Source of the DNA: a virus
DNA: 31,741 bases
Virus record (IMG/VR): IMGVR_UViG_3300027747_000013
Coordinates: 1-31,741 of that record
Strand: one strand, 5' to 3'
Below the pieces are notes generated by a model. That model saw only the letters and a program-made list of their open reading frames with translations, was not told where the DNA came from and did not search any database. The position numbers were made by a program, and so were the translations under genes. Below are positions 1-31,741 of this stretch, one piece after another (position 1 is the first letter of the stretch; every line of letters starts with the position of its first letter).

Positions 1-127
1 TTGCCAGAGCGGATCTGAACGCGGCGAAATCCTGCAAGGATCGCCTTCACTGGCTATTCGTTGAGCGCGGCTGGACCAAGATCGAGACGCCGAATCACAA
101 GTTCGCGATCCAAAAGAACGGCGGCAA
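1..127. repeat. Left copy of 127-bp terminal direct repeat (circular contig overlap)
   Basis: These bases are identical to 31615-31741. The repeat lies inside one open reading frame that runs unbroken across the joined ends. This is what a circular or circularly permuted molecule gives when a de Bruijn assembler leaves a k-mer-length overlap. A genuine short terminal repeat is less likely, because it would cut a conserved gene. The unique genome is therefore 31,614 bp. Confidence 0.93.
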
Positions 128-3636: not shown

Positions 3637-4029
3637 GTGACCTACCTTCCCCCCGAAATGCCGATCTCGCTCGCCAAACTGTGCGAGCTAACCGGTGTTG
3701 CCGAGGGGACGCTACGTGACGCCGTGCGGAGAAACCTTCTCGCGATCACACGACAACGCCCGACGCTCGTCCGACTTTCGGACTATTATCAATGGGCCAA
3801 TGCGGAAGAAGAGGGGGCGAGCGAGGGACGGGGAGGGGACGCCGGAACAACTTCCAAGCGGGCTGTACCGGTACGTGACCAAGTTGAAAACCGGGACAGT
3901 CAAGGGGCCAGCCAAGCCAACCAAAGAAGAGGCCCGGTTAGCTCTGGCCCAAAAGCTTCAAAGCCTAAGCGACGAAAGCGCGGCGAGGCCCCGGCGGTCG
4001 TTTGGGATTATGGCCAGATCGTGGACTGA
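3637..4029 (+). CDS. Excisionase-like HTH protein, 130 aa, overlapping int
   Basis: GTG 3637 has a strong purine-rich ribosome binding site (AAGGAGGGGAAAGG region) upstream. Residues about 10-55 (ISLAKLCELTGVAEGTLRDA, then a basic turn and YYQWANA) fit a MerR/excisionase-type winged helix. Such proteins bend attachment-site DNA and direct the integrase towards excision. The rest is a basic, low-complexity tail rich in Lys, Arg and Ser. The final 230 bases overlap the integrase gene in another frame, so that part may be constrained by int. Position directly before int supports the call. Confidence 0.6.
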   Translation: MTYLPPEMPISLAKLCELTGVAEGTLRDAVRRNLLAITRQRPTLVRLSDYYQWANAEEEGASEGRGGDAGTTSKRAVPVRDQVENRDSQGASQANQRRGPVSSGPKASKPKRRKRGEAPAVVWDYGQIVD

Positions 4030-4876
4030 ATCCAGGACGGACGCCGCGCCATCGACCCGCGACACTTGGAAGTATTGGGCGAGTGCGCTGGAATCCGATC
4101 CGCTCGCCAAGATCCCCGCGATCGAGATCACGCCGGCCGATTTCACCGCATGGTGGCGCCGGGCAAAAATGGCCGCTGTAACCAAGATCAAACGGGTGGC
4201 ATGGTTCAGGCAAGTCCTCAGAGACAACGGGATCCGGGTCGAATGGTCGCCGCCGAAAAGCGACAAGCACAACCCCCGTCGTCCGCTGAACGAAGCCGAG
4301 CGAGCCGCAGTTTTGAACTGTCTCGCCACCCTTCCCGACGATCTTCGGTTAGCTGTCCTGTTGTGCTGGTACGTGGGGCTTCGCCGGTCCGAAGCGTGTG
4401 GGCTGATGCACTCAGATAGGGACGGCGACGGGATTCGGGTACGCCGAACCGTGACCTATGCAGACGGAGCATTGAGGGTGAGGCCCAAGGGAAAAACTGG
4501 CGTATCGCTTGCCTGGGTCCCGCTCGCGCCGGTACTCCGTGATCTCATTGGCCCGCCGAGGAAAGGGTTTGTTCTGACCGACGATGCCAAACGACCGATG
4601 AACCCCAAGGTATTGTCGAACCGATTGACGGCGATCTTGAAGCCCATCATCCCGCTTGTTCCGAAGCTCGGCACTCATGCCCTTCGACGAACGTTTGGCA
4701 CCATGCTTTTGGAGTCAGGAACCGACGTAGTTACAGCTGCCAAGGCGATGAGACACGACCCCGCAACGCTCCTCAGAGACTACGCAAGATCCCGCGATGA
4801 CCTCACTTTGAAGGCTGTAGAAGGCGTGTTTTCAGGGTCCTTACCCCCATCAATTACACCCACCGAGCCGAAATAG
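3800..4876 (+). CDS. int: Tyrosine recombinase (phage integrase), 358 aa
   Basis: The protein catalyses site-specific integration and excision. Residues about 20-60 (GLYRYVTKLKTG onward) look like an arm-binding AP2-type N-terminal domain and 80-150 like a core-binding SAM-like domain. The catalytic domain shows Arg195 (GLRRSE), a Lys near 230, His293/Arg296 (THALRRTFG), His319 (MRHDP) and the nucleophile Tyr328 (LLRDYAR). ATG 3800 is the probable start, although the frame is open back to 3695 and no clear Shine-Dalgarno precedes it. It overlaps the excisionase-like gene by 230 bases in the +1 frame. A tRNA-like attP core lies 17 bases after the stop, the usual int-attP arrangement. Confidence 0.9.
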   Translation: MRKKRGRARDGEGTPEQLPSGLYRYVTKLKTGTVKGPAKPTKEEARLALAQKLQSLSDESAARPRRSFGIMARSWTESRTDAAPSTRDTWKYWASALESDPLAKIPAIEITPADFTAWWRRAKMAAVTKIKRVAWFRQVLRDNGIRVEWSPPKSDKHNPRRPLNEAERAAVLNCLATLPDDLRLAVLLCWYVGLRRSEACGLMHSDRDGDGIRVRRTVTYADGALRVRPKGKTGVSLAWVPLAPVLRDLIGPPRKGFVLTDDAKRPMNPKVLSNRLTAILKPIIPLVPKLGTHALRRTFGTMLLESGTDVVTAAKAMRHDPATLLRDYARSRDDLTLKAVEGVFSGSLPPSITPTEPK

Positions 4877-4916: not shown

Positions 4917-4917
4917 C

Positions 4918-5045: not shown

Positions 5046-6098
5046 TCAGACTGCTATCTGACGAAGCATCTCCGTGTACTCAACCGCCTGGGAAAGTGAG
5101 GCAAAGTACGTGATGAACCGGTCATCGTGCTCGCTGTACTGGGGGTGGATCACGACGGCGCTACTTGGAGTCGAGCAGTCCATAAACTGATTCTGCTTCC
5201 CGTAGTCGTCAAAGCGTTTGTAGGTGCCAACGCGGATCGCGTGGGTCCGAAGACCCGCCACCTTTTGGGAGATGTACCCATCAGTGTGGATATGGCCCGA
5301 CACATAGATGTGGTCACGCTCGCCAAAGAACGCCGTTTTCATCGGTCCGTGCGTCGGGTGAAACTGCGAATGACCTTTGTGGTCGTGCCGAGCGTTTACG
5401 CGGACCACGTTGCTATTCTCAAGGTGCAGCGCCAGCCGTTGCCCGTGCATCGAGTAGAGCACGTTGAGGGTGGCCGCTGTAGACGCTGCTTTGTCGAGCT
5501 TTCCGCTCCAATGGTCATGGTTTCCTCCCACGGCCAACAGCCAAGGCAGTTGAGCGAAAAACCATTCGATCAGTCTGTGTGCTTGCGTGATCGTGGTTGT
5601 CTGGTGAGCATAAAGGCTTTGAAGTCGACCCACCCAGTTGTTTGTATAGTCTCCGATGCACATAGGAAAAACATAGTCCCGGTTTTGGCATGAGGCAAGG
5701 TCTGCTCGAAGCTGGGGGATGTTGCACCCGTCGTCGTCTAGGTGTGGATCGCCAAAAAAAGCAAGGCAGATAGGGCCGGGAGTGTGGATCTGAACAGGGA
5801 TAAGGGACGTTGCTCGGTCGCGTCCATCTTTAGCGTTAAATTGCCTGCATTTGTATTCCAGGATCTCTTCGGCAGTCAACTCACCTGCCGGGATCTGTGG
5901 CATGGAGAACGCCAGAGAAGTTTGCTTTTCTTGCGGTTCAGGTTCTTTAGGTAAGCCAAGCTCAATCAAAGATCGAGTTTGCTTATACCAAACGTATTGG
6001 TAGACCTTGTTGGGAAAATGCTTCGCTAACTCTTTCCCCCGTAGCCCTTTCCGTAGCAGGTCGTGAATAAGTTCCGTCTCTTTGGTCGTCCATGCCAT
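5046..6098 (-). CDS. Calcineurin-like metallophosphoesterase with N-terminal HTH-like region, 350 aa
   Basis: The metal-binding motifs are all present in order: GDPHLD (116-121), GD (149-150), GNHD (192-195), a His-rich stretch near 238-249 and GHIH (268-271). The enzyme should hydrolyse a phosphomono- or diester with two metal ions; the substrate is unknown. Residues 1-45 (WTTKETELIHDLLRKGLRGK onward) resemble a Myb/SANT or helix-turn-helix unit, so nucleic acid is a plausible substrate. The start ATG 6098 has GGAGG five bases upstream. A terminator precedes it and attP lies beyond it, so it is outside the late operon proper. It may be a lysogenic-conversion gene, a DNA-processing enzyme or, less likely, a lysis factor. 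Confidence 0.8.
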   Translation of the reverse strand: MAWTTKETELIHDLLRKGLRGKELAKHFPNKVYQYVWYKQTRSLIELGLPKEPEPQEKQTSLAFSMPQIPAGELTAEEILEYKCRQFNAKDGRDRATSLIPVQIHTPGPICLAFFGDPHLDDDGCNIPQLRADLASCQNRDYVFPMCIGDYTNNWVGRLQSLYAHQTTTITQAHRLIEWFFAQLPWLLAVGGNHDHWSGKLDKAASTAATLNVLYSMHGQRLALHLENSNVVRVNARHDHKGHSQFHPTHGPMKTAFFGERDHIYVSGHIHTDGYISQKVAGLRTHAIRVGTYKRFDDYGKQNQFMDCSTPSSAVVIHPQYSEHDDRFITYFASLSQAVEYTEMLRQIAV

Positions 6099-6172: not shown

Positions 6173-7810
6173 CTACTTAGCCAAAACCCATTTCGTGCCG
6201 TTGTAATACACGACGGCACGACCGTAGTTGGTGGTTACCGCCGCGACTGCGCCACCGCCCGCCGCCGTCGCGTTGATCGCCTTATCCGAAGAGGTCAAAG
6301 AGATGTTGCCGGTACCCGCTCCACCGCCTTCGTCGTAGATGTAAAACGTCATGCCCTGAGTAGGCCCCGCAGGAAGCGCTAAAGACACCGCGCCGGTAGC
6401 GGTATAAGCAATCTGCGCTCCTGCCCAGGCGCTGATCGTGCCCGCGCCGGAGAAGTTCTGGAACCCGAAAGCGTTGACCCCCGAAAGCGAAAACGCCGAG
6501 GTAGACCGAGGTGCAATATCCCGAGGCAAAAGCCCAATAGTCAAGATCGCTCGATCCCAGTAAACGTAGTCCGTGTTTGCTGTTGTGCCCGTGTCGTTGT
6601 AAATATAGGCGTATAGGTAGGTGTCGGTTGGAGCAACGTAGACGTTTTGGACCATCCATTTGAACCCGTCTTGAGCCGTGATGTATTGCGGCGAGGTGTT
6701 GCTTGTTTGCGAACTGGTGGCAAGCGCAATTCGACCGGCCCCGAGTGACGCATTTGTCGAAGGCATATAACGTCGAACCGCAAGCGTACACCAGTGCCCC
6801 CTAAACGGCTTGAGCCCCGCAGCAGTCGTAAATGCTTGCCGAAGGTAGGAGTTTGATCCTGCCGCCGTCTGCGTGGTCCTCAGTGACACGCCCGAGATAT
6901 TGTCGTACTGCGTTGAGGACAGAGTACACGTAACGTTTGATGCCGTCCACCCGTAAGGCGTCCCGCTGTTGAGTGTCGCGAAATCACCGTTTACGAGGAA
7001 GTTGGGAGCATATTGATCAAGCGAACTAACAAACTGCGCGGGCTCTACTCCGGTGTAGCTGGATAGCGCTGAATACCAAGGCTGAAGGTACACCTGAGTG
7101 CCTGCCGCCGAAGGGTGAAGATTATCAACGTACCACGCCGAAGGCTTTCCCGCGTTAATGTAAAGGTCATAGACGTTCGCAATTCCGATGCCCCGGAGCC
7201 TAGCGACCGATTGCAGCATGTCCATGATGATCGCCATGTAGTTGTCGTCCCGATTAGGAGCTTGAGCGACCCAAACAAAGCCCGCATCCGGCCATACCTG
7301 CCAAATAGACTCTGTGAACTCGGTTGCTTGAGACAGGTACTTCCACGGAATACTGAAATCGTTCCCGTAACGCGACGTCATGTTTTTGCCGTGGTTGCAA
7401 ATCACAAGATCAGGAGCAACGGCAATATCTCGAATGGCTCCAAAGTGAGAGCCAAGGAAGTATTGGGGGATGGTGCCCGCGACGCTTCCGTTGTAGACGT
7501 TCAGCTTGAACGAGCCACTTCCCGTCTGTATCACGGTCGGAGACGCCGGAAAGTCACCGGTGCCCGTGTCGTAAAGGTAGTAGTTGACCGTGTAAGCGGG
7601 GTACTTGGGAGCAATCCAACTCGCGAGAAGGTAGACCCATTCGTCGGTTCCGTTGCCGGTCGAATCGCCGACCACCAAAATAGCGGTGTCGCGCTGGCCA
7701 GAACGAAGGGTGTTGAGCAGCTTTTGGCATTGGATTGACGGAGCCGTCGCGCCAAGCTTTGAGTAGGTCGCGTCGGCCTGGCCACGAGTAAGTGTTGGTT
7801 TTGAGTCCAT
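6173..7810 (-). CDS. SGNH/GDSL-type esterase tail protein, 545 aa
   Basis: The first ~250 residues form an SGNH hydrolase: VVGDSTGNG with nucleophile Ser50, an Asn block near residue 139 (ICNHGKN) and the catalytic Asp229/His232 in VDNLHPSAAG. Such domains remove acetyl or other ester groups from capsule, O-antigen or exopolysaccharide. Residues ~260-430 look like a beta-sandwich carbohydrate-binding module, and the C-terminal ~100 residues are a Gly/Ala/Thr-rich beta region ending in VVYYNGTKWVLAK, as in many fibre tips. The start ATG 7810 has AAAGGA about seven bases upstream. Being the last late gene after the other tail proteins, it is the probable receptor-binding or depolymerising protein. 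Confidence 0.75.
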   Translation of the reverse strand: MDSKPTLTRGQADATYSKLGATAPSIQCQKLLNTLRSGQRDTAILVVGDSTGNGTDEWVYLLASWIAPKYPAYTVNYYLYDTGTGDFPASPTVIQTGSGSFKLNVYNGSVAGTIPQYFLGSHFGAIRDIAVAPDLVICNHGKNMTSRYGNDFSIPWKYLSQATEFTESIWQVWPDAGFVWVAQAPNRDDNYMAIIMDMLQSVARLRGIGIANVYDLYINAGKPSAWYVDNLHPSAAGTQVYLQPWYSALSSYTGVEPAQFVSSLDQYAPNFLVNGDFATLNSGTPYGWTASNVTCTLSSTQYDNISGVSLRTTQTAAGSNSYLRQAFTTAAGLKPFRGHWCTLAVRRYMPSTNASLGAGRIALATSSQTSNTSPQYITAQDGFKWMVQNVYVAPTDTYLYAYIYNDTGTTANTDYVYWDRAILTIGLLPRDIAPRSTSAFSLSGVNAFGFQNFSGAGTISAWAGAQIAYTATGAVSLALPAGPTQGMTFYIYDEGGGAGTGNISLTSSDKAINATAAGGGAVAAVTTNYGRAVVYYNGTKWVLAK

Positions 7811-13569: not shown

Positions 13570-13836
13570 GTGATGGATAGCAATGTTTGCCCTAGATGCC
13601 AGCGACCGGCACTGGTGCAAACTCAAAATAGAGTGGAGAACTCGTGGCGCACCTACCTCTTGAGGGTCGCCGGGATTCTTTTCTTAATTGGCCTCGTGAC
13701 CATTTGCGCCTACGGGATCGTGCTCATAATTTTGGCGACGATCATCGCAATTTTTGGACTATTCCTGCCGTCAACAGTTGCCGGGACAATCAATGTTCAG
13801 TGCCTGCAATGCGGGCTTGTGTTGCCGCCTCGTTAG
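13570..13836 (+). CDS. Zinc-ribbon and two-TM membrane protein (moron), 88 aa
   Basis: This gene runs against the late tail genes and sits in its own gap between the hub-like and tape measure genes. CPRCQRPAL near the N-terminus and CLQCGLVLPPR at the C-terminus form a split zinc ribbon that brackets two hydrophobic segments (about residues 31-50 and 52-70). Both ends should therefore face the same side of the membrane. The start is GTG 13570 or ATG 13573. An extended -10 lies only 6-9 bases upstream, which predicts a leaderless mRNA. Independent expression and reverse orientation are hallmarks of morons; superinfection exclusion or host modification is plausible but unproven. Confidence 0.7.
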   Translation: MMDSNVCPRCQRPALVQTQNRVENSWRTYLLRVAGILFLIGLVTICAYGIVLIILATIIAIFGLFLPSTVAGTINVQCLQCGLVLPPR

Positions 13837-15341
13837 CGCCTAGCCACGCGGTTGGGCATACCTGAGTTTCGAGCCATGGCGAGCTGATGCCCAAGCAGTT
13901 CCGCTCTCAGTTCCGCTGCGAACTGAAGGAGCAGCCGTTCGGGCTTGCCAGTCATCGGACTATTCGTTCCGAGCGCCGCGCCGATCCGAACGGGCGAAGC
14001 CGCTTCTTCCGCCCGAGCGCCGCCGCCAAGGATTTGCCGTTGGAGATCTAGCGACTTTTGGGCAAGGTCGACGAGTTTCGCCGTGTTCCGCGCCACAGGG
14101 TCTTGAGTGAGTGCGTCCGGTTGCGGAACGGTTGGAAATGTTGGCGCTGGCCCGTCTGGAGTTTCCCTCGCATTTCTAAACCGGTTCCGTATTTGCGCCT
14201 CCGACAACTTCAGCTGCGAATCAAGTATGCCGCTTTTGAGACCAGCGGAAAACTTTAAGACTCGGTCGACCGCTTCTTGGTCGCGGCCTCCCGAAGCACT
14301 TACTTTTACGATGTCAACTAGATACCCAATAGAATCAACAAAATACTTTAGTCGAATCGACGCTTGAGCAAGCCCGACAAAGAAATTTTCAAAAACTGTA
14401 CTACTTGATTTGAGCCCGGACCCAAGACCAAGGAATTGCCCAGCGACAAATGGCACGACACCCGACTTCACCAGTAAAGACATATCCGCCGTGAACGACT
14501 GAAGGAACGGCAACAAGAGCTTATTGACTTCGTCCCCGATCTGCCTGAACGCTTGACCCGCAACGTCCGAGACGTTCGCCCGAATGTTTTCCGCGCCACC
14601 GCTGATTGAGTCCGCGATGGTCTTCAATCGCCCTTCGCTGATCTTCTGAATGGCGTCGAAGACTTGGTCCGACGTGCCTTGGATCTCGCCCGCTTTGGTC
14701 ACGCCGACACCCTGAGCGCGTAGATCTTGAGCGCCTACGCCCGCCTTACGGAAGACTTCAAACGCTTCGCCGAAAGACCCGCCCTTGACCCGTGCCAGCG
14801 CACCTGCAACCTGAATTAGCCCCTGCGGATCTACGCCCGACGTCACGAGCGCAAACCGCTCAATGATGGGCAAGAATCGACCAACGTCAAGCCCCGAAGC
14901 CGCGAGTTGTGCCGACGCCCGCGCCAGATCCTCTAACCCGAACGCTGATTTGGTCGCGTAGCTTTCCAGGTACGACATCGCCTGCGTTCCAGCTTCAATC
15001 CCCCCGAGCGCACCGGCGAACGTCCGCTTCATTGTATCGAACGACGCCGACGCCTCCGACGCCGCATTCGCAAACGCCAATAGCGCACCGCCGCCCGCCG
15101 CAACACCCGCCGCAATACCCGCCGCCAACTCCGACGCCGCATTCGCGAACCCCAATAGCGCCCCGCCGCCCCCCGCAACACCCGCCGCCGCCGCAAGCCC
15201 AAAGCCGCCGATTTTGGCCATGCCGGCGCCGAGCCCTTGAGCGGACGCAAGGAATCCTTTCGTGGCCGTGCTCGCTTTCTGAACCCCGGCCGAATAGTGG
15301 TCAACCATTCGGAACTCGGTTACTAGGACTTCATCTGGCAT
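13833..15341 (-). CDS. Tail tape measure protein, 502 aa
   Basis: It follows the frameshifted chaperone genes, its usual place, and shares a base with the GT stop (TAATG at 15341). The N-terminal ~100 residues are Ala/Gly-rich and hydrophobic. A TMP-like domain follows (residues ~100-270: SFDTMKRTFAGALGGIEAGT, YATKSAFGLEDLARASAQLA, GSFGEAFEVFRKAG). The middle hydrophobic segments probably enter or cross the membrane during DNA injection, and the C-terminus is helical. At 502 aa it predicts a fairly short tail. The N-terminal region contains an internal duplication. Confidence 0.85.
   Translation of the reverse strand: MPDEVLVTEFRMVDHYSAGVQKASTATKGFLASAQGLGAGMAKIGGFGLAAAAGVAGGGGALLGFANAASELAAGIAAGVAAGGGALLAFANAASEASASFDTMKRTFAGALGGIEAGTQAMSYLESYATKSAFGLEDLARASAQLAASGLDVGRFLPIIERFALVTSGVDPQGLIQVAGALARVKGGSFGEAFEVFRKAGVGAQDLRAQGVGVTKAGEIQGTSDQVFDAIQKISEGRLKTIADSISGGAENIRANVSDVAGQAFRQIGDEVNKLLLPFLQSFTADMSLLVKSGVVPFVAGQFLGLGSGLKSSSTVFENFFVGLAQASIRLKYFVDSIGYLVDIVKVSASGGRDQEAVDRVLKFSAGLKSGILDSQLKLSEAQIRNRFRNARETPDGPAPTFPTVPQPDALTQDPVARNTAKLVDLAQKSLDLQRQILGGGARAEEAASPVRIGAALGTNSPMTGKPERLLLQFAAELRAELLGHQLAMARNSGMPNRVARR
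15055..15189 (-). repeat. 75-bp duplication within the tape measure gene
   Basis: The segment beginning at 15055 recurs from 15130 with high identity, a period of 75 bp or 25 codons. Both copies encode GVA-x-GGGALL-x-FANAASE. In-frame duplication of tape measure segments is a known way for tail length to change. Confidence 0.8.
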
Positions 15342-15960
15342 TACAAGATCCCTCTTCGCCCGCTTTCAATCGCGAGAATTTCCGCACTGACCATATCCAC
15401 TAACTGTCGTTCCTGCCGAGGCGTCAAGTCTTCGGGGTGGCAACCAAAGACCCGCCCACTCACCTCAATTTCTAAGGCAAGGAGCGGATTCGCCTTCAGT
15501 CTTTTTTTGCTTCGCCGTAAAGCTCGTTCTTCAGGTTCACCAAGAAATTGGAGCTGTACCAAGTGATCTGATCCATCACGTAAGAGATCAGGTGAGGGGC
15601 CGACGTCAGCCGCAACGCATCGACCGGGGTAAAGCCCGGTGACAGGCAAAGCCGGTGAAGCGTGAACGCCGCCTCTACGTTCTCTTGGCTTACCAGGTCC
15701 CCAAGTTCGCGGAATGGGGCCGGGAGAAGGTCATTGTTGCCCGCCTTCACCGCCGCCGCTTTTGCGTCAAGGAGTTGCTTGACAAAGCCCAATTTGTCTT
15801 TTTCGAAAGCCTTCTTTTCTGCGTAGGAGCCGAAGCCTTTGAAGGTCAGCCCCCCGCCGTTGGGCAAAGCAATTTCGAACGTTGTGGGAGCGCCAAACGC
15901 TTCAAGAAGCGAATCAACGTCTACGGCAACAGGGGTTTCAGGGCTTAGCGTTTGGCTCAT
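15341..15960 (-). CDS. Tail assembly chaperone GT fusion by -1 frameshift, 206 aa
   Basis: Ribosomes that slip back one base at the A7 run (15508-15502) leave the G frame and read RLKANPLLAL onward to a stop at 15341-15343. This adds 53 residues to the first 153 of G. In lambda-type tails G and GT bind the tape measure protein and tube subunits and promote tail assembly at a fixed ratio. Position between the tube gene and the tape measure gene, absence of a separate good start for the second frame, and the stop-start overlap with the tape measure gene all support the call. Confidence 0.8.
15496..15960 (-). CDS. Tail assembly chaperone G, 154 aa
   Basis: This is the unshifted product, ending GEAKKD at TGA 15498-15496. 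The start ATG 15960 has AGAGG upstream (AAGAGGTAACAA). The protein is helical and acidic at the N-terminus, with residues ~30-150 resembling siphovirus tail assembly chaperones (FKGFGSYAEKKAFEKDKLGF, SPGFTPVDALRL). It is expected to be absent from mature virions. It overlaps the parS-containing small frame by 23 bases. Confidence 0.8.
   Translation of the reverse strand: MSQTLSPETPVAVDVDSLLEAFGAPTTFEIALPNGGGLTFKGFGSYAEKKAFEKDKLGFVKQLLDAKAAAVKAGNNDLLPAPFRELGDLVSQENVEAAFTLHRLCLSPGFTPVDALRLTSAPHLISYVMDQITWYSSNFLVNLKNELYGEAKKD
15502..15508 (-). promoter_or_regulatory. Slippery heptamer A-AAA-AAA for -1 frameshifting
   Basis: On the minus strand the G frame reads GCA AAA AAA GAC TGA. Both tRNAs can re-pair after a one-base backward slip, giving AGA CTG AAG in the new frame. 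The site lies three codons before the G stop, as in other siphovirus G/T pairs. Confidence 0.8.
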
Positions 15961-16099
15961 TTGTTACCTCTTCCTTTTTCTCGCTCTCGGTCACATTTTG
16001 CGGCTCCTGAACTGTTTCACGTGAAACATCTCGTTTGCCGCCAAAACCGCCGTTTGCAGCGGGGTCATTCCAATCTGGTCTGATGTCGTGTCGTTCCAT
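15938..16099 (-). CDS. Small acidic protein spanning the parS sequence, 53 aa
   Basis: ATG 16099 lies three bases after the tail tube stop, and the frame ends at TGA 15940-15938 inside the G gene. The peptide is hydrophilic and disordered-looking, rich in Glu, Asn and Pro, with no fold recognised. Its codons GTT TCA CGT GAA ACA carry most of a perfect parS palindrome. Small proteins do occur at this place in some phages, but the frame may exist mainly as spacer DNA around parS. Confidence 0.45.
   Translation of the reverse strand: MERHDIRPDWNDPAANGGFGGKRDVSRETVQEPQNVTESEKKEEVTNEPNAKP
16013..16028. other. Perfect bacterial parS (ParB-binding centromere site)
   Basis: The palindrome TGTTTCACGTGAAACA is exactly the conserved bacterial chromosomal parS consensus. 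Chance occurrence of a given 16-mer in 31.6 kb is of the order of one in 100,000. The phage shows no ParA or ParB gene, so host ParB is the expected binder. The site lies between the tail tube gene and the G/GT chaperone genes. Confidence 0.9.
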
Positions 16100-16101
16100 G
16101 T

Positions 16102-16923
16102 TTAGCTCGATGCCGCCAGCGTAACGGTGCTGTAAGTTACAAAGCTGTAGTTTTCTTCCACCAATTGCCCGTCGACGACCTTGAAAGAAAACGAATCAAA
16201 GACCGCGTTTCCGCTGGCTTTGATGCCGTGAGTATCGGACGCAAGCGCGTTCTGGAAGGTGAACGACACCTCCGTCGTCGGTGCGTTCAACGCCTTTTCG
16301 AGAATCGTACTGGTGCCGGTCGGGGCTGCCGGATAAGCGCCCGCTCCTGGATCTCCTCCGTCAAAAGACATGCTGATTTGCTGAAGCGCGTACCGTTGGC
16401 CCGTTAACGTCGCCTCATTCAAGTTCATGGCGAAGGTCAGCACGACCGAATTAACCGTGATGCTGACCGTTTGATCATTGTTTGAAAAGTCGGACCCGCC
16501 CAAGAAGTCGAATAGGGTTTTGGCATCGTCCGATTCAACGTCGATATCTACCGAGATTTGATAATCCTTAGCGGTGACTTGAGGCTTCCCGTACTTCTCC
16601 CCAACGCCTGCTTGCATCACGTGCTCAAACGAACCGGAGAGCGTGAAGCTCTTGAGCACGTTGAGGTAAGACACGCCGCCGATTGTGAATGCGGTCACGT
16701 TTACGTGAGAGACGCGCTGGCTTCCGCTGACGACCGAGGCAAGATCCACCGATAGTTTGCAGTTCGCCTTAACGCCTTGGGAATTCTTTCCGAGTCGAGC
16801 AATTAGCCCCGCGTCCTGCTTTTCGTTGGTCATCGAAAAGGTGAAGTTGGTCCCGGCGGCAACGAGCGCAATACCCCCAGCCGTGAAAATGCCGATGTCC
16901 TGTCCTGAGTAGCGTGTTGCCAT
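16102..16923 (-). CDS. Major tail tube protein, 273 aa
   Basis: The position, just upstream of the chaperones and downstream of the head-tail connectors, is that of the siphovirus tail tube subunit. The sequence is beta-rich with alternating hydrophobic residues (TNFTFSMTNEKQDAG, VNVTAFTIGGVSYLNV, QTVSITVNSVVLTFAMNL), as expected for a tube fold that polymerises into hexameric rings. AGGAAA precedes ATG 16923 by about seven bases. No extra Ig-like domain is evident. Confidence 0.75.
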   Translation of the reverse strand: MATRYSGQDIGIFTAGGIALVAAGTNFTFSMTNEKQDAGLIARLGKNSQGVKANCKLSVDLASVVSGSQRVSHVNVTAFTIGGVSYLNVLKSFTLSGSFEHVMQAGVGEKYGKPQVTAKDYQISVDIDVESDDAKTLFDFLGGSDFSNNDQTVSITVNSVVLTFAMNLNEATLTGQRYALQQISMSFDGGDPGAGAYPAAPTGTSTILEKALNAPTTEVSFTFQNALASDTHGIKASGNAVFDSFSFKVVDGQLVEENYSFVTYSTVTLAASS

Positions 16924-19357: not shown

Positions 19358-20632
19358 TTAGCTCACCTTGACCCGTGCGAACGCGCCTTCTTGAGCCGGT
19401 GCGCCATCGGTTTCGAAGTTGTATACAAAGCCAAGTTCGTTGGAGTTGGCGTAAGTCTCGTTAAGGGGAATGATCTCGTTGAGAAGGTTGTCTACGATGA
19501 TGTAACCCAACTTGAGGTTGGCAAGAGTCATCGGGTACGTGCCCGTGGTGATGTTGCCGCTGACGCCGGGGTCAGGCATGAACTCAGAGATGGCCGTGGG
19601 AACACCCAAGATCGTCGAAGGCATTCCGCCGACGAGCGTTTGCGCGTTGTACATACCGACACCTGCCGGGGACCAAATGTACTGGTTGTTGGAGTCCTTG
19701 ACCTTTCGGATTCGGGCTTCCATGTTACGGTGAAGGAACCACGTTAGGTCTCCACGGTAACCAGCTTCGATGAGAGCATAAGCGTTGACGATATCGTCAA
19801 AACCGACCGTATTTGCAGTGCCCGAGGACACGTCTCGCGATGTGGAAACGCCCGACGTAGAAGCGACGTTGAACCCAAGCGGCTGACCCACACCGGTTCC
19901 GCTAATGAATGCCTTTTCTTCTGTGTAGGCTCGTGACCTTGTGATCTTGCGCATGAACTCCGCTTCAGCGTTGGCCGCGTTGCGAATGAGCTTGCGAGAA
20001 AGCTTGATGAGTTTAGACCCACGATGCGGCTGTAGTTCGCGTCGTCCGATGGTCGATTCCGTCGAAACCGAAACCGCCGCCGTCTCTGCGACCCACGAGA
20101 AATCATTCAGGTCGGACGAGGTGACAAATCCGAGAGAGTCAGCACCGAGAACCGAATAGACTTCCGACATCGACCGGATGTAGGTCATCTTGGCAACGTT
20201 GGTGATGATTCGCTCGGCCATCTGAAGAGGCGTCACGAAGTACCCCGCGCCAGAAAGGTCAGTCTCACTGAAAGCGTGAAGTTTCGCGTCTTCCTGCCAT
20301 GCCTGGCGATAGGTTTCGCTTCGGTGGCCGCTTTTCAGCACTTCAAGGAACTGGTGGTCGATGTTCTTGCCTTTTTGCTTGGCGCTCGCATCAGCACGCG
20401 CCCCAGACGCGACACCGGAGCCCGGCGCTGGCTGAGATAGCAAGATCGTGGCCTGCTCGCTTTGCTTAACGAGATCAATTTGATCGTTAAGTTTGTCGAA
20501 GTCAGCAACCGCCTGAGTCCAAGCGGTCCTATCCGATTCGGTCATGTCGTTGGGGGTCCCGTTGGATTTCTCCATAAAGCCCCGGATGTCGTGCGCAAGT
20601 TTAATGCGCTTTTCCATTAGCTCTTTCAACAT
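19358..20632 (-). CDS. HK97-fold major capsid protein, 424 aa
   Basis: Residues 1-110 are a charged helical delta (scaffolding) domain, probably removed by the protease. The rest matches the HK97 family: GAGYFVTPLQMAERIITNVA, the E-loop region, AFISGTGVGQPLGFN (residues ~240-255), RGDLTWFLHRNMEARIRKVKD, and the late AEFMPDPG-like strand and NELGFVYNFETDG region. ATG 20632 has AGAGGA upstream. It follows the protease gene as in all HK97-type modules. No obvious Lys/Asn cross-link motif was established. Confidence 0.88.
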   Translation of the reverse strand: MLKELMEKRIKLAHDIRGFMEKSNGTPNDMTESDRTAWTQAVADFDKLNDQIDLVKQSEQATILLSQPAPGSGVASGARADASAKQKGKNIDHQFLEVLKSGHRSETYRQAWQEDAKLHAFSETDLSGAGYFVTPLQMAERIITNVAKMTYIRSMSEVYSVLGADSLGFVTSSDLNDFSWVAETAAVSVSTESTIGRRELQPHRGSKLIKLSRKLIRNAANAEAEFMRKITRSRAYTEEKAFISGTGVGQPLGFNVASTSGVSTSRDVSSGTANTVGFDDIVNAYALIEAGYRGDLTWFLHRNMEARIRKVKDSNNQYIWSPAGVGMYNAQTLVGGMPSTILGVPTAISEFMPDPGVSGNITTGTYPMTLANLKLGYIIVDNLLNEIIPLNETYANSNELGFVYNFETDGAPAQEGAFARVKVS

Positions 20633-20633: not shown

Positions 20634-21479
20634 TTATTTATCCTCTTGCAAAAGGAACAACGAATGCGACCGAAGGCGCAATAGTTCGATGCTCGCTGAT
20701 TTGTCCTCTTCCAATTCGGGTGGACTCACCGACATTTCAAGCACGGAGCCCGAGACTGCGTGTATTTGCCGGATGATCAATTGCCGATCTTCGGAAAGCC
20801 GTCGTCCGTTTTGTTCGCGGAGTTTGGCGACGTCGAGTGCTCGTTGAATCCCAGCAAGCGAGAATTCAAGATGCGTTTCGAGATCCAGACCATGCGCTGA
20901 ATCCCCGTTAAGACTTTGGACCTGTCGAGCTTTGGCAAGATGGTTCGCCCCAACCAGCACAATCGACCACTCATAAAGCTCGGTGACGCTGCGAATGAGG
21001 TTGCACGAGTATTTCCACGCTTTGATGGATTTGGCGTCGTACTGCGTGAGGTCACCACCCTCGTCTTCGATGGCTTTGAGAAGTTCCGCGCCCGAATTGA
21101 AGTATTGAATTGTTCCGTAGTCCGGGGTGAAGCCGATGGACACGCTGACCGACTTACCCGCGCCCATTCGCTCCATAGCGATCGTGCGAGCTTCTTGACC
21201 GGCTTCGGTCGCGTGGAACTGGGCAACGCTCACCAGCTCGTTTCCTTGGATCTTCGCCGAGATCGGCATACCGATGGGGAGATCATCCCAGTCGTGACCA
21301 ACCAGAATCGCGCCATCGTTCACGAACCCTTTGAGCGCCGCCGAAGTAAATGCACCAGGCGCAAAGACGCACCCGATACGGAGCATGGTCCCCGTGGTCG
21401 AAGCTGTGACTTCGATCTGGTTATCCTTGATCGCACCAAGCGCGTGGAAAATGGCGGTCTTCTTTTCGTTCATGTTCAT
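20634..21479 (-). CDS. Prohead maturation protease (HK97 family), 281 aa
   Basis: The serine protease motifs are His62 in LVGHDWDDLPIGMP and a Ser in KSVSVSIGF (Ser112 or Ser114), with a final acidic contact in YEWSIVLVGANHLAKA. It cleaves the capsid delta domain inside the procapsid. The C-terminal ~100 residues are helical and may act in scaffolding. The start overlaps the portal stop; a second ATG two codons in is possible. Confidence 0.85.
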   Translation of the reverse strand: MNMNEKKTAIFHALGAIKDNQIEVTASTTGTMLRIGCVFAPGAFTSAALKGFVNDGAILVGHDWDDLPIGMPISAKIQGNELVSVAQFHATEAGQEARTIAMERMGAGKSVSVSIGFTPDYGTIQYFNSGAELLKAIEDEGGDLTQYDAKSIKAWKYSCNLIRSVTELYEWSIVLVGANHLAKARQVQSLNGDSAHGLDLETHLEFSLAGIQRALDVAKLREQNGRRLSEDRQLIIRQIHAVSGSVLEMSVSPPELEEDKSASIELLRLRSHSLFLLQEDK

Positions 21480-23461
21480 TCAACTGGTCCAAACGGGCTT
21501 AGTCCGTCCGACACCCGAACCCATCGGCATTTGCAATTCCCAAGGCAAACCGTGTTCCCTTCCCGAGGGTGAGTAAACGCGGTCGAATCATCAAAAGGAG
21601 AAAGCGACGCGATGTAAAGGCAGTCCGGACAATGTTCGGCAACGCCCAACTGCCAGTCATACTTTTCATCCGGCGTTCCGGCGGCAATAAAGCCCGCTGA
21701 CGCGCTCGAAGAGGTCTTTAGGCTGTAGAGCCCTGCCCGCTGCCGAAGTGCCCCTTCGATGTCAAGGGACCCGTCATCGCCGTTGTACCGCCCGTCTTCA
21801 ATGTCCTGAAGGAAGCCAAGCAGGAATTCCTGCTCTACGTCGGTCGTGGTCTTGGTAAAGTTCGCAACTTGGTCAGTCGTTGGCGTCGCTCCGCCCGTTT
21901 GGAGCCCGAGCGTGTACTGAACTTTGTGGGTGTCGTAGATCGCTTGAGTCAGCTCGCTTTTGAGCCCTTCGATATCGAGCTTCCCCGCTTTGTAGTCGTC
22001 AAAAGCGTTCATCATCGCCCGGTCCATCTTATTAATGTTCCGGTTATGCGTTGACTGTGCCAGCTTGTCTCGCGTGACCTTGTGGGTGACGATGCCCGGC
22101 GTTCGTCCGGCATTCTCTAGCCGTTTCCGGTTGGCTTCGCCCATGCGGATAGCCCAATCCGAAAGCCCTTGTTTCTTTGCCGTGTCCGCTGGTGCGCCGA
22201 TGCCCGACGCCCGCGCCTGAAGGTCAAAGTAGGTCACACCCTTATCAGTGCTTTCCGGGGTCTCGCCCATCACCTCTTTAGCCCGGTAGCGGTCGATGAT
22301 GCCCGCTAGGAAGTTTGCTCGGTTGTTCTCGTCTCGTGCGTTGGTTTCGTCGGCAAGCCATGATACGGCCGAAGTGTCCCACGCATACCGGAACATGGCC
22401 GGGTCCATTCCGAACTCGGGAAGGATCTGTTGAGACCACTGCGCCGCCATATCCCGCGCCATCGGAAGCACCGTGAGGTTACCAAGCGCGTCAAGTGCTT
22501 CAGCAAGGTTCGCGTAGGTCTTGGACGAAGAGGGCAACCCGAACGCCATCGGATCGCCACCGAGCGCCGCGCAAATTCGGTCGGTTGGAATCGAGCGAAT
22601 CGCTCCAAGGTCAAGGTCTTTCGGGCTGAACGTTAGCGGATTGATTTTTGACGGAAACGGCAAGTAAACCGCTTGGCCGCGAGCGTCCAAAATTGTCTCA
22701 TTGATCAGGTCACGCATATCCCGCATTTGTTGCGGAGTCGGAGCCGTGCCGCCTGGTGGAACCGTTTCCGGCGTCATCACGTGCGCGCCAGTCGCCCCAT
22801 TCCGAAGAAGGGTATCGAGCCAACCCGACGCCTGATTATCCGCGCTGACTTCCCGAAGCTGACCGTAAAGCGGCGAGAAGCCGCAACGAACGTCAAGCGG
22901 ATCAATCCCGTTGCGGGTCATCAAGACGTCTTCGTAGTTCAGATCAACCGGACCCGCGCCATAGGCCACGTAACGATAGTGGGTGATTAGCTTCAGCCCA
23001 TCGGGATTGTCACGGTCGCTTAGGATCTGCGTCCAGTTGTGAGGCATGTACCAAAAGCCGATGAGCCGCCCCGCGTTGTCCCGTCGCTTAAAGAGAAACG
23101 AATGCCCGCGAGTGTCCAACGAAAGGATAAGGCCAGCAATCAGGGCATTCCCGTTGTAATAGTCGTTCGGGTGATTGAAAACGTTGACCGCTTGAGCGAC
23201 CTGCGGACCTTGAGCACGATTCCACTGATTCTTGGCCGGGTTCCACTTTTGGACGATTAGCTCCAAGTCCTGAAGCATCGTCGCTTTTCGCTGAATGCAC
23301 GTCGCGACAATCGAATTGTTCCACGGATCGCCAACCTCTTCGGCGTAGTTGATTCGCGAATTGCGAAGCCACGGCGTAGCACGGTACATTGACGGGCCAC
23401 GGTTCGGGCCTTGCGGACGGAATGCCTGCAACCACTTGGTAGCCGTTTTTAGTAGGTTCAT
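21476..23461 (-). CDS. Portal protein with MuF-like C-terminal extension, 661 aa
   Basis: ATG 23461 overlaps the terminase stop (ATGA) and has AAAGG about eight bases upstream; the frame is open to 23527. Residues ~20-400 form an HK97-type portal (WNNSIVATCIQRKATMLQDL, YNGNALIAGLILSLDTRGHS, the AALGGDPMAFGLPSS motif near 300). Residues ~420-661 look like a head-morphogenesis MuF-type module: a helical part (NRNINKMDRAMMNAFDDYKA) and a terminal CPDC...CLGNCKC metal-binding motif. It forms the dodecameric DNA channel, with the added domain perhaps going into the capsid. Confidence 0.8.
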   Translation of the reverse strand: MNLLKTATKWLQAFRPQGPNRGPSMYRATPWLRNSRINYAEEVGDPWNNSIVATCIQRKATMLQDLELIVQKWNPAKNQWNRAQGPQVAQAVNVFNHPNDYYNGNALIAGLILSLDTRGHSFLFKRRDNAGRLIGFWYMPHNWTQILSDRDNPDGLKLITHYRYVAYGAGPVDLNYEDVLMTRNGIDPLDVRCGFSPLYGQLREVSADNQASGWLDTLLRNGATGAHVMTPETVPPGGTAPTPQQMRDMRDLINETILDARGQAVYLPFPSKINPLTFSPKDLDLGAIRSIPTDRICAALGGDPMAFGLPSSSKTYANLAEALDALGNLTVLPMARDMAAQWSQQILPEFGMDPAMFRYAWDTSAVSWLADETNARDENNRANFLAGIIDRYRAKEVMGETPESTDKGVTYFDLQARASGIGAPADTAKKQGLSDWAIRMGEANRKRLENAGRTPGIVTHKVTRDKLAQSTHNRNINKMDRAMMNAFDDYKAGKLDIEGLKSELTQAIYDTHKVQYTLGLQTGGATPTTDQVANFTKTTTDVEQEFLLGFLQDIEDGRYNGDDGSLDIEGALRQRAGLYSLKTSSSASAGFIAAGTPDEKYDWQLGVAEHCPDCLYIASLSPFDDSTAFTHPREGNTVCLGNCKCRWVRVSDGLSPFGPVE

Positions 23462-24690
23462 AGCATTACCTTTCGCCAATCGTCGAGATCCATAGAGAAG
23501 CCTGTCTGTCTCGGCCGGAACTCCCATGCAGCCAACGCAAGTCCGATAACCGTGTCATCGTGCATGCCGTCGGGTGCGTTCATCGTCACGGTTCCTTTCG
23601 CGGTCACGTCGTATTCGTAGGCAAGCAACTCGCCAGTCTGTACCGGGTCATTCAAAAGTGAAATCGCTCGCCGCTCAAACTGAAGTTGCAAATTCTCAAT
23701 AAGCTGTCGTTTTGAGTCGTGCGTGAACTTGAAAGACACCACGCGATGACTCGGAAGCCGCCGCCGAATCAATTCATAGACTGGGTCCCCGACGCCCGTG
23801 GAATCGACCACGAGCACCGCGCCGGGGTGTTGCTCGACGACTCGCGCCACCCGTTCTACCGTCGCTTCCCACTGGATGCCGTTCCATCGGCTTAGGTGGT
23901 TTTGCCGCCCGTCCTCGCCTAGACCACTGAGTACCGAATAGTCCTGAGTCCGCGCAAGGTCAAGCCCGAAAAACTTACAAGGGTCGCCCTGCGTGTGGCT
24001 ACCAATGCACTCACGAACGCCTTGGAACACGCCGCCCGCATCTTCAAGGAACTCCGCTAGATACTCTTGCCGGAATGACCGTTCCGGCATTTGCGCGCGG
24101 GCGATTTCGATGAACGATGACCGGATGTACGGGTTTGCCGACGTTGGAGCATGAAACGATGCCCAAAGGCTTTGCGTCGGGTCCTGCCCGCGCTGGAATG
24201 CTTCATGGAAGAAGTTCATCCCCTTGGGTGTGCCGAGTAGCCAGGCCTCGCCGCTGTAGTCGCTAAGCGTCGGAAGAATCGCGTCGTTCCAGATTTGGCC
24301 TAGCTTCTTGCAAAGCCCGGCTTCGTCGATCGCGACCCGTTTGTACTTTCGCGAACGGCCGGCGTCTTCGTCTTCGAGCGTCCAACCTTCCCACGTTCCG
24401 CCGTTGATCAGCTCAATTCGCCGGTCCGTCGCGTTAGCCGACTTGATGACCGGCTTCAGCCTCACCACCATGTCACGGAACGATTGAGCGAGGAGCTTGT
24501 ACGTTGGAGCAAAGTAACCGAACGGGGCCGCTTCGTCGACCATCGTTTCGACGGCCAGCTCGCAGTTCACAAGGTGGGTCTTTCCAAACCGACGACCGCA
24601 GGCGACCGCGTTAAACGTCTTCCGAGCCGCTAAGATCCTCATCTGCCCCGGGTGAGGCATCGGGATACTCAATGCGATCTCTTTTGACAC
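23458..24690 (-). CDS. terL: Terminase large subunit, 410 aa
   Basis: The ATPase has Walker A GRRFGKT (32-38) and Walker B VAIDEA (Asp122/Glu123). The RNase-H-like nuclease has Asp244 (GLDLART), Asp296 (VVDSTG) and Asp378/379 (HDDTVI). It packages and cuts phage DNA at the portal. The start is GTG 24690, inside the small subunit gene by 80 bases. Length is on the short side, as for compact terminases. Confidence 0.9.
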   Translation of the reverse strand: MSKEIALSIPMPHPGQMRILAARKTFNAVACGRRFGKTHLVNCELAVETMVDEAAPFGYFAPTYKLLAQSFRDMVVRLKPVIKSANATDRRIELINGGTWEGWTLEDEDAGRSRKYKRVAIDEAGLCKKLGQIWNDAILPTLSDYSGEAWLLGTPKGMNFFHEAFQRGQDPTQSLWASFHAPTSANPYIRSSFIEIARAQMPERSFRQEYLAEFLEDAGGVFQGVRECIGSHTQGDPCKFFGLDLARTQDYSVLSGLGEDGRQNHLSRWNGIQWEATVERVARVVEQHPGAVLVVDSTGVGDPVYELIRRRLPSHRVVSFKFTHDSKRQLIENLQLQFERRAISLLNDPVQTGELLAYEYDVTAKGTVTMNAPDGMHDDTVIGLALAAWEFRPRQTGFSMDLDDWRKVML

Positions 24691-25045
24691 GGATGACTAC
24701 TTCCCCGGAGTGATCGAGCTTCTCGGTGAACATTCCGAGGTACTTACCTTCGAGTTCAGCGGCTTTGAGAGCCGCGCTGAACTGCCCCGCTTCTTCTGCC
24801 AATTTGCCGCGTCGTTCGATGTCTCTCAAGACGTCGTCAGCGGTTCTCTTGGTCCGTTCCGCTCGTTGCGCAAAAGCTTCTTGGATAGCTTGCTGAATCA
24901 AAGGTTTTGAAAGGTTCTCGGTTGATATGGATTGAGCCGTTTTCGCGCTGTATCCTGCTTTGATCGCCGCCTGTGTCGCGTTTAGGTCAACAAGGTATTC
25001 CTGAACGAATAGCGCCTGCTTTGGGGTCAGCTTGCTATTCGCCAT
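24611..25045 (-). CDS. terS: Terminase small subunit, 144 aa
   Basis: ATG 25045 has AAGGA about nine bases upstream and is preferred to an in-frame GTG at 25099. The sequence opens LTPKQALFVQEYLVDLNATQ AAIKAGYS, the classic Terminase_2 N-terminal helix-turn-helix that recognises the packaging site. A helical oligomerisation region and an acidic tail (GADEDLSGSEDV) follow. Confidence 0.88.
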   Translation of the reverse strand: MANSKLTPKQALFVQEYLVDLNATQAAIKAGYSAKTAQSISTENLSKPLIQQAIQEAFAQRAERTKRTADDVLRDIERRGKLAEEAGQFSAALKAAELEGKYLGMFTEKLDHSGEVVIRVKRDRIEYPDASPGADEDLSGSEDV

Positions 25046-25132
25046 CGCGTCAGTTCCTTGGCTTCCCGCCGTTGCGCTCGTTGCTTCCGGAGTCGCCACG
25101 CCCGCATTCGGCTCCGGGTGTTGAGCTTGATC

Positions 25133-28415: not shown

Positions 28416-28828
28416 TAGTCGTCCTCGAAGGGGTCGTATGCCGCCGCCTCGGGTGTTGGCGCCGCATTCCGCGCCGGTTGTCTCGTAGCTCCTTCGGGAT
28501 CGTCTTTCACTCGGTCCAGGCCCTTCACGTTGTCCGCAGTGACTTCCCAAATCTCACGCTGCACACCTTCTTTGTCGGTGTACTTGCGAGACTCAATCCG
28601 GCCATCGACGGCGATTAGGCGGCCCTTCGTGATGTAGTTCGAGACGTATTCGGAGTTGTGCCCCCAAGCTTTGACGTTAAAGAAATCGGCGGTCGGTTCG
28701 TTCGGATCGGTCGGCTTGCGGCCCTTCTCCACCGCAATGGAGAAGGTGGCGTAGTTCTTTCCCGTGGTCGTCGTGCGGATTTCCGGATCTCGGGTGAGTC
28801 GACCAATGAGGACGATGCGGTTAAACAA
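28415..28828 (-). CDS. ssb: Single-stranded DNA-binding protein, 137 aa
   Basis: The OB fold is clear: MFNRIVLIGRLTRDPEIRTT, then ATFSIAVEKGRK, FFNVKAWG and LIAVDGRIESRKYTDKEG. A disordered linker leads to the acidic C-terminal tip DPFEDD, which binds partner proteins. The TTG start at 28828 is supported by AGGAGG six bases upstream. It partners the adjacent Sak4-like ATPase. Confidence 0.92.
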   Translation of the reverse strand: MFNRIVLIGRLTRDPEIRTTTTGKNYATFSIAVEKGRKPTDPNEPTADFFNVKAWGHNSEYVSNYITKGRLIAVDGRIESRKYTDKEGVQREIWEVTADNVKGLDRVKDDPEGATRQPARNAAPTPEAAAYDPFEDD

Positions 28829-30008
28829 TCAAGGCCTCCTGAGTCTTATCGGCAAACGGGTCTTCAGTCGCGCCAACCAGTTCGGGCTTTTCAAGATTCG
28901 GGAAGCCTGATCCAGCCCATTCGATCACCGTCTCAAAGTCACGCAATCCGCCTTGGTGCGCCTGGGTAATTGCCGCCGCCGCCGTGATCGGCAGGTCGGA
29001 GTCTTTGCAAAGGTCGACCAGTTCCTGCCACTCCATTGGGCTTGGATTGAATTGATTAAGTGCGCTTGTCAAAGCCGCGTTGCGCTCGGCACGGTTCCAT
29101 TCGTTTGCCAATTCGAGGCTTCGAATACCAGCCGCGTGAGCCGCCTTGACGATCTCCGCGCCAACCTCAACGGGCCGCCCACGAAGGAACCGAGTCCAGT
29201 CGGGAGTATCAAAACCCCATGCCGCCCGAATCGCTTTTAACTCGGGATCACCCTTTGGCCGCGGTTGACTTGCGACGTCACCGCGCGGCTGAGCCGCATC
29301 CTCTTGAACCGGGGAAGGTCGCTCGGCAATCTCCTGAACTTCGGCCGAGTCAAGCCAGTTCAAAAACGTGTCGCCGGTCTTCGAGTCAATCCGAAAAATC
29401 CGGTTTCCAAAAAGACCGGTCCGGTCCTTGGTTTGGGAAGCGTTGTGCGCCATGTCGAGCTGGAACACGGTCGTAAACTCGTATTCGACATCCGGTTCTT
29501 GAATAGCCGCGAGTCCGACCTTTTGGACCTTGCCGCCCTCTTGGGAGTAGTCCGTCTTCGCCCGCATGCACGCGATAACGTGAATGCGGCTTTGAAGAAT
29601 GGCGTTCTTGAGTTCGTCGGCTTCGGCCTTCACCGGCCCCCAGTTCGCGTACTGGTTTTGCTTCCCGCCGCGCTGGTCGAGTTGCTCCTTTCGGTCAAGC
29701 AAATACTTCCAAGCGTGAGAGAAGGAATCAATAATGATGACCTTGTATCCCGCTTCTTCAGCTTGCTGAATCGCCGCAATGTACTTCTCAGGGGAGAATG
29801 GCGGCTCAATGTCCGCAACGTCGAATTCGGTCACGTGTGAGTAAAGCGACGCCGAACCATTCTCCGTGTCGATGACCGCGATCGGCCCGCCCTTCGCCAA
29901 TCCCTTCGCCAATTCGAGCGCCGAACGAGTCTTCCCGCTCCCTGATGCGCCCATCAGCCCTACTTTCAAGAAGACGCGCTTCCTGCTGGCTTTCTTAAAT
30001 AAGCTCAA
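28821..30008 (-). CDS. Sak4-like AAA/RecA-fold recombination ATPase, 395 aa
   Basis: Walker A GASGSGKT (20-27), Walker B VIIIDSF (90-96) and the sequence VFLKVGLMGASG fit the AAA_24/Sak4 family of phage single-strand annealing proteins related to the RecA core. These act with a cognate SSB, which is the next gene and overlaps its stop. Residues ~240-395 form a second helical region of unknown function, joined by a Pro/Gln-rich linker. The start is TTG 30008, after GGAGGAAGGAAT. Confidence 0.78.
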   Translation of the reverse strand: MSLFKKASRKRVFLKVGLMGASGSGKTRSALELAKGLAKGGPIAVIDTENGSASLYSHVTEFDVADIEPPFSPEKYIAAIQQAEEAGYKVIIIDSFSHAWKYLLDRKEQLDQRGGKQNQYANWGPVKAEADELKNAILQSRIHVIACMRAKTDYSQEGGKVQKVGLAAIQEPDVEYEFTTVFQLDMAHNASQTKDRTGLFGNRIFRIDSKTGDTFLNWLDSAEVQEIAERPSPVQEDAAQPRGDVASQPRPKGDPELKAIRAAWGFDTPDWTRFLRGRPVEVGAEIVKAAHAAGIRSLELANEWNRAERNAALTSALNQFNPSPMEWQELVDLCKDSDLPITAAAAITQAHQGGLRDFETVIEWAGSGFPNLEKPELVGATEDPFADKTQEALIV

Positions 30009-30370: not shown

Positions 30371-31174
30371 ATGGAATTTTGTGCTTTTTTGGTGAATCCT
30401 TACGGCATGGCTTATAGCCCTGGCGAAAAAATAGGCATCGCACGATCCAAGAAAGGCCCCAAAGGTTGGAGCCAGACTGATTTGGCTACGGCGCTGGCCA
30501 AAAAACGGGCATTAGGCATTGATAACGTCCCGAAGTGGCGCTGTCGGATTGCGAACTACGAGAACAACCGTCCAACCCCACCGCCGGAACCTTTGAAGCT
30601 CATCGCTGAAGCCCTTGGGGTGTCGCTCAGCTGGTTTTATGAGCCGGAGGACGACACGCCGGTCTGGAAAGGCGTTGAGATCGACGGCGCGGGGGTCTCA
30701 GCGTTTGCCAGCGTTGTGCCTATCGGTAAAACCCGAATGATATATGCTGGTGAAACCCCTTGCTCAACTAATTGGGGCGATCCGCTTTCAGGAGGTGAGG
30801 ACATCGAAGTAGACGCACGCTTCGCGGGACGCGACCGGTTTGTCACTCGGTTTGTAAACGACTCGTGTTACCCTGCGCTCAAAGAAGGCGACCTTGGTAT
30901 ATGGGAGCGAGACAATCGCCCGAACTTTGGCGTCATCGTCCTTGCTCAACGCAAAGGCGACCATGCGTGTACCGCTAAGATGCTCGCCGTCGATACCAAG
31001 ACTTTGACGCCCAAGCTGCTACCTATCAATCCTCAGACTGAACCGCCAAGCAACGGTGAAGGGTGGGGAGCCATTGCTCGCCTAGTGGGCGTCATCCGCG
31101 ATGAAGACGGGCTTGAGCAGACGTGGCATCGACCGAGCGGGCTTCGACCAAGAGACCTAATTCCCGCCATGTGA
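30371..31174 (+). CDS. CI-like repressor with S24 autocleavage domain, 267 aa
   Basis: The protein maintains lysogeny by binding operators. Residues ~17-92 form a Cro/CI helix-turn-helix (KGWSQTDLATALAKKRA, then the recognition helix and LIAEALGVSLSWFY). A cleavage site Ala126-Gly127 (MIYAGET) precedes the LexA-like peptidase with nucleophile Ser165 (FVNDSCYPALKEGD) and general base Lys203 (CTAKML), so the SOS response should induce the prophage. The usual DSM is DSC here. ATG 30371 lacks a Shine-Dalgarno; ATG 30407 (residue 13) is a serious alternative start. It is flanked by operators on both sides. Confidence 0.88.
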   Translation: MEFCAFLVNPYGMAYSPGEKIGIARSKKGPKGWSQTDLATALAKKRALGIDNVPKWRCRIANYENNRPTPPPEPLKLIAEALGVSLSWFYEPEDDTPVWKGVEIDGAGVSAFASVVPIGKTRMIYAGETPCSTNWGDPLSGGEDIEVDARFAGRDRFVTRFVNDSCYPALKEGDLGIWERDNRPNFGVIVLAQRKGDHACTAKMLAVDTKTLTPKLLPINPQTEPPSNGEGWGAIARLVGVIRDEDGLEQTWHRPSGLRPRDLIPAM

Positions 31175-31377: not shown

Positions 31378-31741
31378 TGCCCACCCCAACCCGAACCTTC
31401 GTCGAGATCGATATCGAGCTCGATCAAATCGCCGATGCCTTCGACCGATTAGGCGACGGGGGCACGGAAGAAGAAATCCTCGCTGCCGTCGAAGCCTACT
31501 TCGGCGACCTCATGGACGAGCGAGACCGCAAGCTCGACAACTACGCTCGCTTCATCGCTCAGCGACAAGCTTACGCCGAGTTCCGCGAAACCGAGGCCAA
31601 GCGCCTCGCCGCCCTTGCCAGAGCGGATCTGAACGCGGCGAAATCCTGCAAGGATCGCCTTCACTGGCTATTCGTTGAGCGCGGCTGGACCAAGATCGAG
31701 ACGCCGAATCACAAGTTCGCGATCCAAAAGAACGGCGGCAA
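31377..31741 (+). CDS. Siphovirus Gp157-family protein, 5' part (continues at 1)
   Basis: ATG 31377 shares a base with the preceding stop. The first ~80 residues are acidic and helical (EIDIELDQIADAFDRLGDGG, then EILAAVEAYFGDLMDERDRK), with a coiled-coil continuation to RADLNAAKSCKDRLHWLFVE. The gene runs off the window end and continues at base 3 of the window. The last 127 bases repeat the first 127. Confidence 0.8.
   Translation, partial: MPTPTRTFVEIDIELDQIADAFDRLGDGGTEEEILAAVEAYFGDLMDERDRKLDNYARFIAQRQAYAEFRETEAKRLAALARADLNAAKSCKDRLHWLFVERGWTKIETPNHKFAIQKNGG
31615..31741. repeat. Right copy of 127-bp terminal direct repeat
   Basis: Identical to 1-127. See the left copy for the interpretation as circular contig overlap. 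Confidence 0.93.

Follow-up and report, generated by a model that had tools for sequence, protein, structure and literature searches.

An exact bacterial parS site in a temperate siphophage genome that encodes neither ParA nor ParB

ParB proteins recognise parS, load there as clamps and spread, and the described systems closest to the locus considered here are mobile elements that carry such sites and have no Par proteins of their own. According to the part of PMC9437464 that cites Meijer et al. (2005), the genome of phage phi29 is drawn into the spore by the host ParB protein Spo0J. The published phi29 genome contains four parS sites with one mismatch each, and its relative B103 has one exact and one near site and no ParB. 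SGI1 carries copies of parS through which it borrows the ParB of the IncC plasmid, and experiments showed that it is stabilised as a result (PMC10954446). The phage-plasmids P1, N15 and Mic1 also keep a centromere on an extrachromosomal phage genome, but they encode both ParA and ParB and use site sequences of their own. Our searches of the open-access literature returned neither a survey of parS in ParB-less phages nor a paper joining phi29, Spo0J and parS.

The stretch analysed here, which we call the window, is a 31,741-base IMG/VR record containing a single exact parS, TGTTTCACGTGAAACA. This is the same 16-mer that serves the chromosomal ParABS systems of B. subtilis and Caulobacter and that lies beside valS and cdsA in Armatimonadota, although the window copy is viral and sits away from an origin and from parAB. 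It is the sole match in the window at up to three mismatches, and Markov models of order 0-4 predict only 3e-6 to 1.1e-5 exact copies; the perfect site picked out in a previous sequence-only reading, which had proposed this comparison, is thus confirmed as exact and single, with a chance of about 1e-5 per contig. Like phi29 and B103, the window phage combines parS with the lack of a phage ParB (tested in B103), but the phi29-type phages are virulent and linear with several sites, whereas the window phage is temperate and circular with one. Its presumed host phylum, Armatimonadota, is not known to form spores. SGI1 shares with it the status of a mobile element with parS and no Par proteins, and differs in being a non-phage element with two sites that relies on a plasmid rather than a chromosomal ParB and on a helper protein too. 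Given the published case of phi29 and Spo0J and the experiments on SGI1, the suggestion that such borrowing was undescribed is not supported, and other kinds of phage carry parS as well.

A 127-bp direct repeat at both ends of the window shows that the genome is complete and closes into a circle of about 31.6 kb (Table 1). It belongs to a siphophage with an HK97-type capsid that is temperate, as its integrase indicates. The ParB_N domain had no match in this phage, Pfam scans of the window likewise returned no ParB, and the only ParA-like signal was a sub-threshold CbiA match (E 0.002) on the Sak4/AAA_24 ATPase. Since the genome is complete, the absence of ParB is meaningful, and the earlier impression that the phage lacks ParAB holds. 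The phage therefore has the make-up of an orphan-parS element, with parS present and ParB absent, and not that of a phage-plasmid with its own ParABS, as it encodes neither ParA nor ParB. Elsewhere in the genome, a tail protein at 6173-7810 gave a weak, below-cut-off match to GDSL esterases and may be an enzyme whose target is surface polysaccharide.

Table 1. Coordinates of the features of the window discussed in the text.
Feature	Position	Strand	Basis
Terminal direct repeat, copy 1	1..127		sequence repeat
Tyrosine integrase	3695..4876	+	PHROG 1, E 1e-34; PF00589
Distal tail protein, tracer of the phage family	11187..13544	-	matched in 20/291 Armatimonadota genomes
Tape measure protein	13833..15341	-	position and homologues
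Tail assembly chaperone, second frame	15341..15649	-	overlapping open frames; slippery run
Tail assembly chaperone, first frame	15496..15960	-	position; homologues in L333, L346, L349, L355
Small gene (53 aa) carrying parS	15938..16099	-	ORF; positional homologues
Exact parS, TGTTTCACGTGAAACA	16013..16028		16-bp palindrome; kept in L480 at the same codons
Major tail (tube) protein	16102..16923	-	position, synteny; homologues in Armatimonadota prophages; no family match
Major capsid protein	19358..20632	-	PHROG 10, E 1.8e-58
Capsid maturation protease (by position)	20634..21479	-	synteny
Portal protein	21476..23527	-	synteny with the annotated Chymera order; homologues
Terminase large subunit	23458..24690	-	PHROG 2, E 5.1e-41
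Terminase small subunit	24611..25099	-	PF03592, E 3e-28
Sak4/AAA_24-type recombination ATPase, not ParA	28821..30008	-	PF13479, E 1.7e-20; PHROG 124
CI-like repressor	30371..31174	+	PF01381; PHROGs 3, 4 and 8
Terminal direct repeat, copy 2	31615..31741		sequence repeat

The site lies within a 53-aa gene between those for the major tail protein and the tail assembly chaperone, in agreement with the small reading frame between tail genes that had been described. Its product (MERHDI..NGGFGGKRDVSRETVQEP..) has a charged tail that is probably disordered, and parS is read in frame as VSRET. Positional homologues with a GGFGG-like motif are present in L480, L484, L485, L486, L489, L355, L359 and L369, and the parS-bearing portion is the one that varies among relatives, which bears out the proposal that this slot could accommodate parS without harm to a conserved protein. 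The chaperone first frame overlaps the small gene by 23 nt, with its start codon inside the end of that gene. Where the two chaperone frames overlap, the minus strand reads C AAAAAAA G (15508-15502), a slippery run at which the second frame is probably reached by programmed frameshifting.

Four records (L122, L123, L125, L126) keep parS, and because they are 99.8-100% identical to the window they are uninformative on conservation. The informative comparison is with L480. This separate phage has tail genes that match those of the window at 64-82% protein identity and about 73% DNA identity, and the same codons hold an exact parS (MERHDIAPDWNNPANNGGFGGNPDVSRETIQEPQ). In the neighbouring genes, where the two phages share an amino acid they also share its codon in only about half of the cases, and five consecutive identical codons occur in 1.4% of the other stretches compared. 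The chance that all five codons for V, S, R, E and T were kept is put at about 0.003, rising to 0.016 when the amino acids are taken as given, values that come from one pair only and are statistically weak. The small gene of L484, L485, L486 and L489, the first three being relatives at about 45-72% identity, contains neither VSRET nor parS, and the site is absent from all Armatimonadota prophage loci examined and from 22 further viral records. With L480 the one independent relative that shares the site and more distant relatives doing without it, parS was gained within the clade that the window forms with L480. The VSRET peptide itself is not needed, because relatives have unrelated residues at this position. 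The search among relatives that had been proposed therefore gives a divided answer: the exact site recurs at the same codons in L480 and is missing from every more distant relative, so that absence from all close relatives, one of the outcomes named as fatal to the idea, did not come about. For G346, another close relative when whole genomes are compared, the sequence breaks off on either side of the locus, and it lies outside this scoring. In L480 itself, the region 3511-5219 stands out, with a capsid gene only 35% identical and a next gene 50% identical to their window counterparts amid neighbours at 69-82%; by this identity profile it is a swap of the capsid module.

When the terminase was used to query bacterial genomes, the loci sharing most of the other genes were two Armatimonadota prophages (L134, L135), and the terminase-matched loci from many other phyla lacked the synteny. 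The Armatimonadota genomes matched by the distal tail protein (Table 1) also have the head and tail genes in syntenic order, and from this prophage synteny we infer an Armatimonadota host. All ten of the tested Armatimonadota genomes with related prophages encode ParB, most of them as one ParB_N protein. Three of these ParBs were inspected and have the CTP box GERRxRA together with Q162, G170, K171, S172, R173, N178, G201 and R204, and the pair R173 and G201 is specific for parS (PMC7383237). At least one exact parS was found in 130 of 291 Armatimonadota genomes, which mostly have one or two, and the reversed control gave none; in three chromosomes the 16-mer adjoins valS and cdsA. We rejected the identification of the window site as a Noc-binding site (NBS), since its sequence is that of parS and the ParBs of the presumed host have R173/G201 and not the Q173/R201 of Noc. 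Capture of a host parS fragment was also rejected, because the flanks of the window site have nothing in common with those of chromosomal sites and encode the small protein of the phage family. Two features of the Armatimonadota sites deserve separate mention. The valS-cdsA parS lies about 1 Mb from parB, unlike the usual parAB-parS arrangement (G158:C1:1881103 and 177764; G004:C1:1305983 and 2242586). The 6.7-Mb assembly G006 (MAG Fimbriimonadaceae SJ840, the genome of L167) contains 112 exact parS and 159 at up to one mismatch, strongly clustered on contigs C22, C46 and others, where the control gives zero and other Armatimonadota have 0-13; this excess may reflect a centromere spread over the genome, a megaplasmid or contaminating sequence.

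parS is strongly over-represented in phages. Exact copies occur in at least 120 IMG/VR stretches, a lower bound that may include some small contigs of host DNA, against one for the reversed palindrome of equal composition. Among isolate phages, a query consisting of parS extended by one base at either end matched 198 of 50,697 records, and its reversed control matched none. Host contamination is unlikely to be the main source of the IMG/VR matches, because isolates behave alike and 46 of 50 parS records among the matches listed, searched whole, had no ParB_N; three had weak matches above the cut-off. ParB_N was likewise absent from all 11 of the parS-bearing isolates tested, namely Bacillus, Ruegeria, Gordonia, Butyrivibrio, Lactobacillus, Microbacterium, Clavibacter and Glutamicibacter phages and two Microviridae. 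In the 5.9-kb record of the filamentous bajarodino virus 6 (L476) the exact site occurs six times and the control not at all. A marine family was sampled through its terminase, independently of parS. Among its members with enough upstream DNA, an exact parS lies within 300 bp before terL, at varying distances, in 9 of 31 members at 70% identity or more and in 1 of 40 more distant members; the reversed control was never seen. This distribution looks like repeated gain and loss in a preferred slot. The TerL of the family, which takes in L029, L083, L066, L097, L120 and L093 and relatives as well as L380-L457, is 64% identical to that of Pelagibacter phage HTVC027P, and about a third of its close members have an exact parS 30-145 bp upstream of terL.

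A host-type parS, the absence of a phage ParB and a tolerant, disordered gene make recruitment of host ParB the natural inference, so that this part of the sequence-only reading stands, apart from its novelty. Binding of host ParB at the window parS is predicted and seems very likely. We propose that parS arose within the fast-evolving small late gene of the window clade and was then kept. When the phage genome is present as a circle, after infection or excision, the site would be recognised by host ParB, which would close as a CTP clamp and slide along neighbouring phage DNA, and the phage DNA would then be tied to the ParA/nucleoid (and SMC) machinery of the host. The circle would thereby be positioned and partitioned like the host chromosome, which would keep it in both daughter cells until it integrates, or throughout a slow or carrier infection. 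We put the probability that such positioning or partition is the main gain from parS at about 0.5; the binding, the spreading and the benefit are what we infer from the site and the presumed host. The precedents of phi29 and SGI1 show that borrowing of this kind can pay. Counting against partition are the informative retention of the site in L480 alone among relatives, the brief need for partition in a temperate, integrating phage, and the presence of one site, which is weaker than the four of phi29.

It is also conceivable, though unlikely, that host ParB spreads from parS across the late genes and, either in the prophage or at an early stage of infection, reduces or times their transcription in the manner of a silencer supplied by the host. 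The site does lie centrally in the late operon and, on the circular map in window coordinates, more or less facing the repressor and integrase, and the marine phages have theirs just upstream of terL. Butyrivibrio virus Arian, which is unrelated to the window phage and belongs to another host phylum, carries an exact parS in the corresponding slot, which directly follows the major tail gene and precedes small genes and the tape measure gene; this phage has three sites by match count and no ParB. However, other phages carry parS elsewhere, including the non-coding DNA of ssDNA phages, and many bacteria show little or no silencing by ParB. Decidedly improbable, in our view, is a role in which ParB at parS loads SMC or otherwise shapes phage DNA and so aids replication, decatenation or packaging: ParB loads SMC at parS in many bacteria and the marine-family sites stand in front of terL, but the window site shows no sign of a nearby origin or pac site, and the slot varies among phages.

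We have little confidence in the idea that replicating phage DNA acts as a decoy which titrates host ParB and disturbs chromosome segregation or the cell cycle. SGI1 does destabilise its helper plasmid through the borrowed parS (PMC10954446), and because presumed hosts mostly have 0-2 exact sites, even one per phage copy could matter; a single site is nevertheless a poor sponge, and the arrays to be expected are seen in only some phages. Hardly credible is the view that the 16-mer is incidental, arising by chance or kept for the VSRET peptide, for although very many contigs exist in which a site expected about 1e-5 times per genome might turn up, although more distant relatives do without it and although its apparent intergenic preference vanishes against other TCACGTGA octamers, the counts of parS and control in IMG/VR and in isolates put a chance origin below about 1%, and relatives carry unrelated residues instead of VSRET.

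Beyond the partition proposed for the window phage, exact parS sites span unrelated dsDNA and ssDNA phages, virulent and temperate, and we give roughly even odds to the wider proposal that they use host ParB, with host-centromere borrowing as a general, uncharted phage strategy gained independently, each lineage in its own slot, and spore entrapment by phi29 as a special case. Should carriage of the host centromere prove routine among phages, ParB would count as a host factor for phages of many bacteria besides those that form spores, and the segregation machinery would move, fold or protect phage DNA. parS alone would be an unsafe marker of a chromosome or origin in metagenomes, and it could link uncultured phages to hosts whose ParB reads it. 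Laboratory systems that already have the sites include B103 or phi29 in B. subtilis and phages of Gordonia and Microbacterium.

Two observations on the phage sites remain. The ssDNA phages (Inoviridae and Microviridae-like) with exact parS comprise L476, SpV4 (L459), phi-CA82 (L472), L006, L026 and L076; the two Microviridae tested, both parS-bearing, have no ParB. Among the IMG/VR matches listed (120 loci), 84 of 146 sites fall in called ORFs, against a coding density of 93%, but avoidance of genes was rejected because the distribution of other TCACGTGA octamers is similar (13 of 19 in genes; Fisher P 0.62). In 59 of these 84 coding sites parS is read in the VSRET frame, often in disordered stretches of unrelated proteins.
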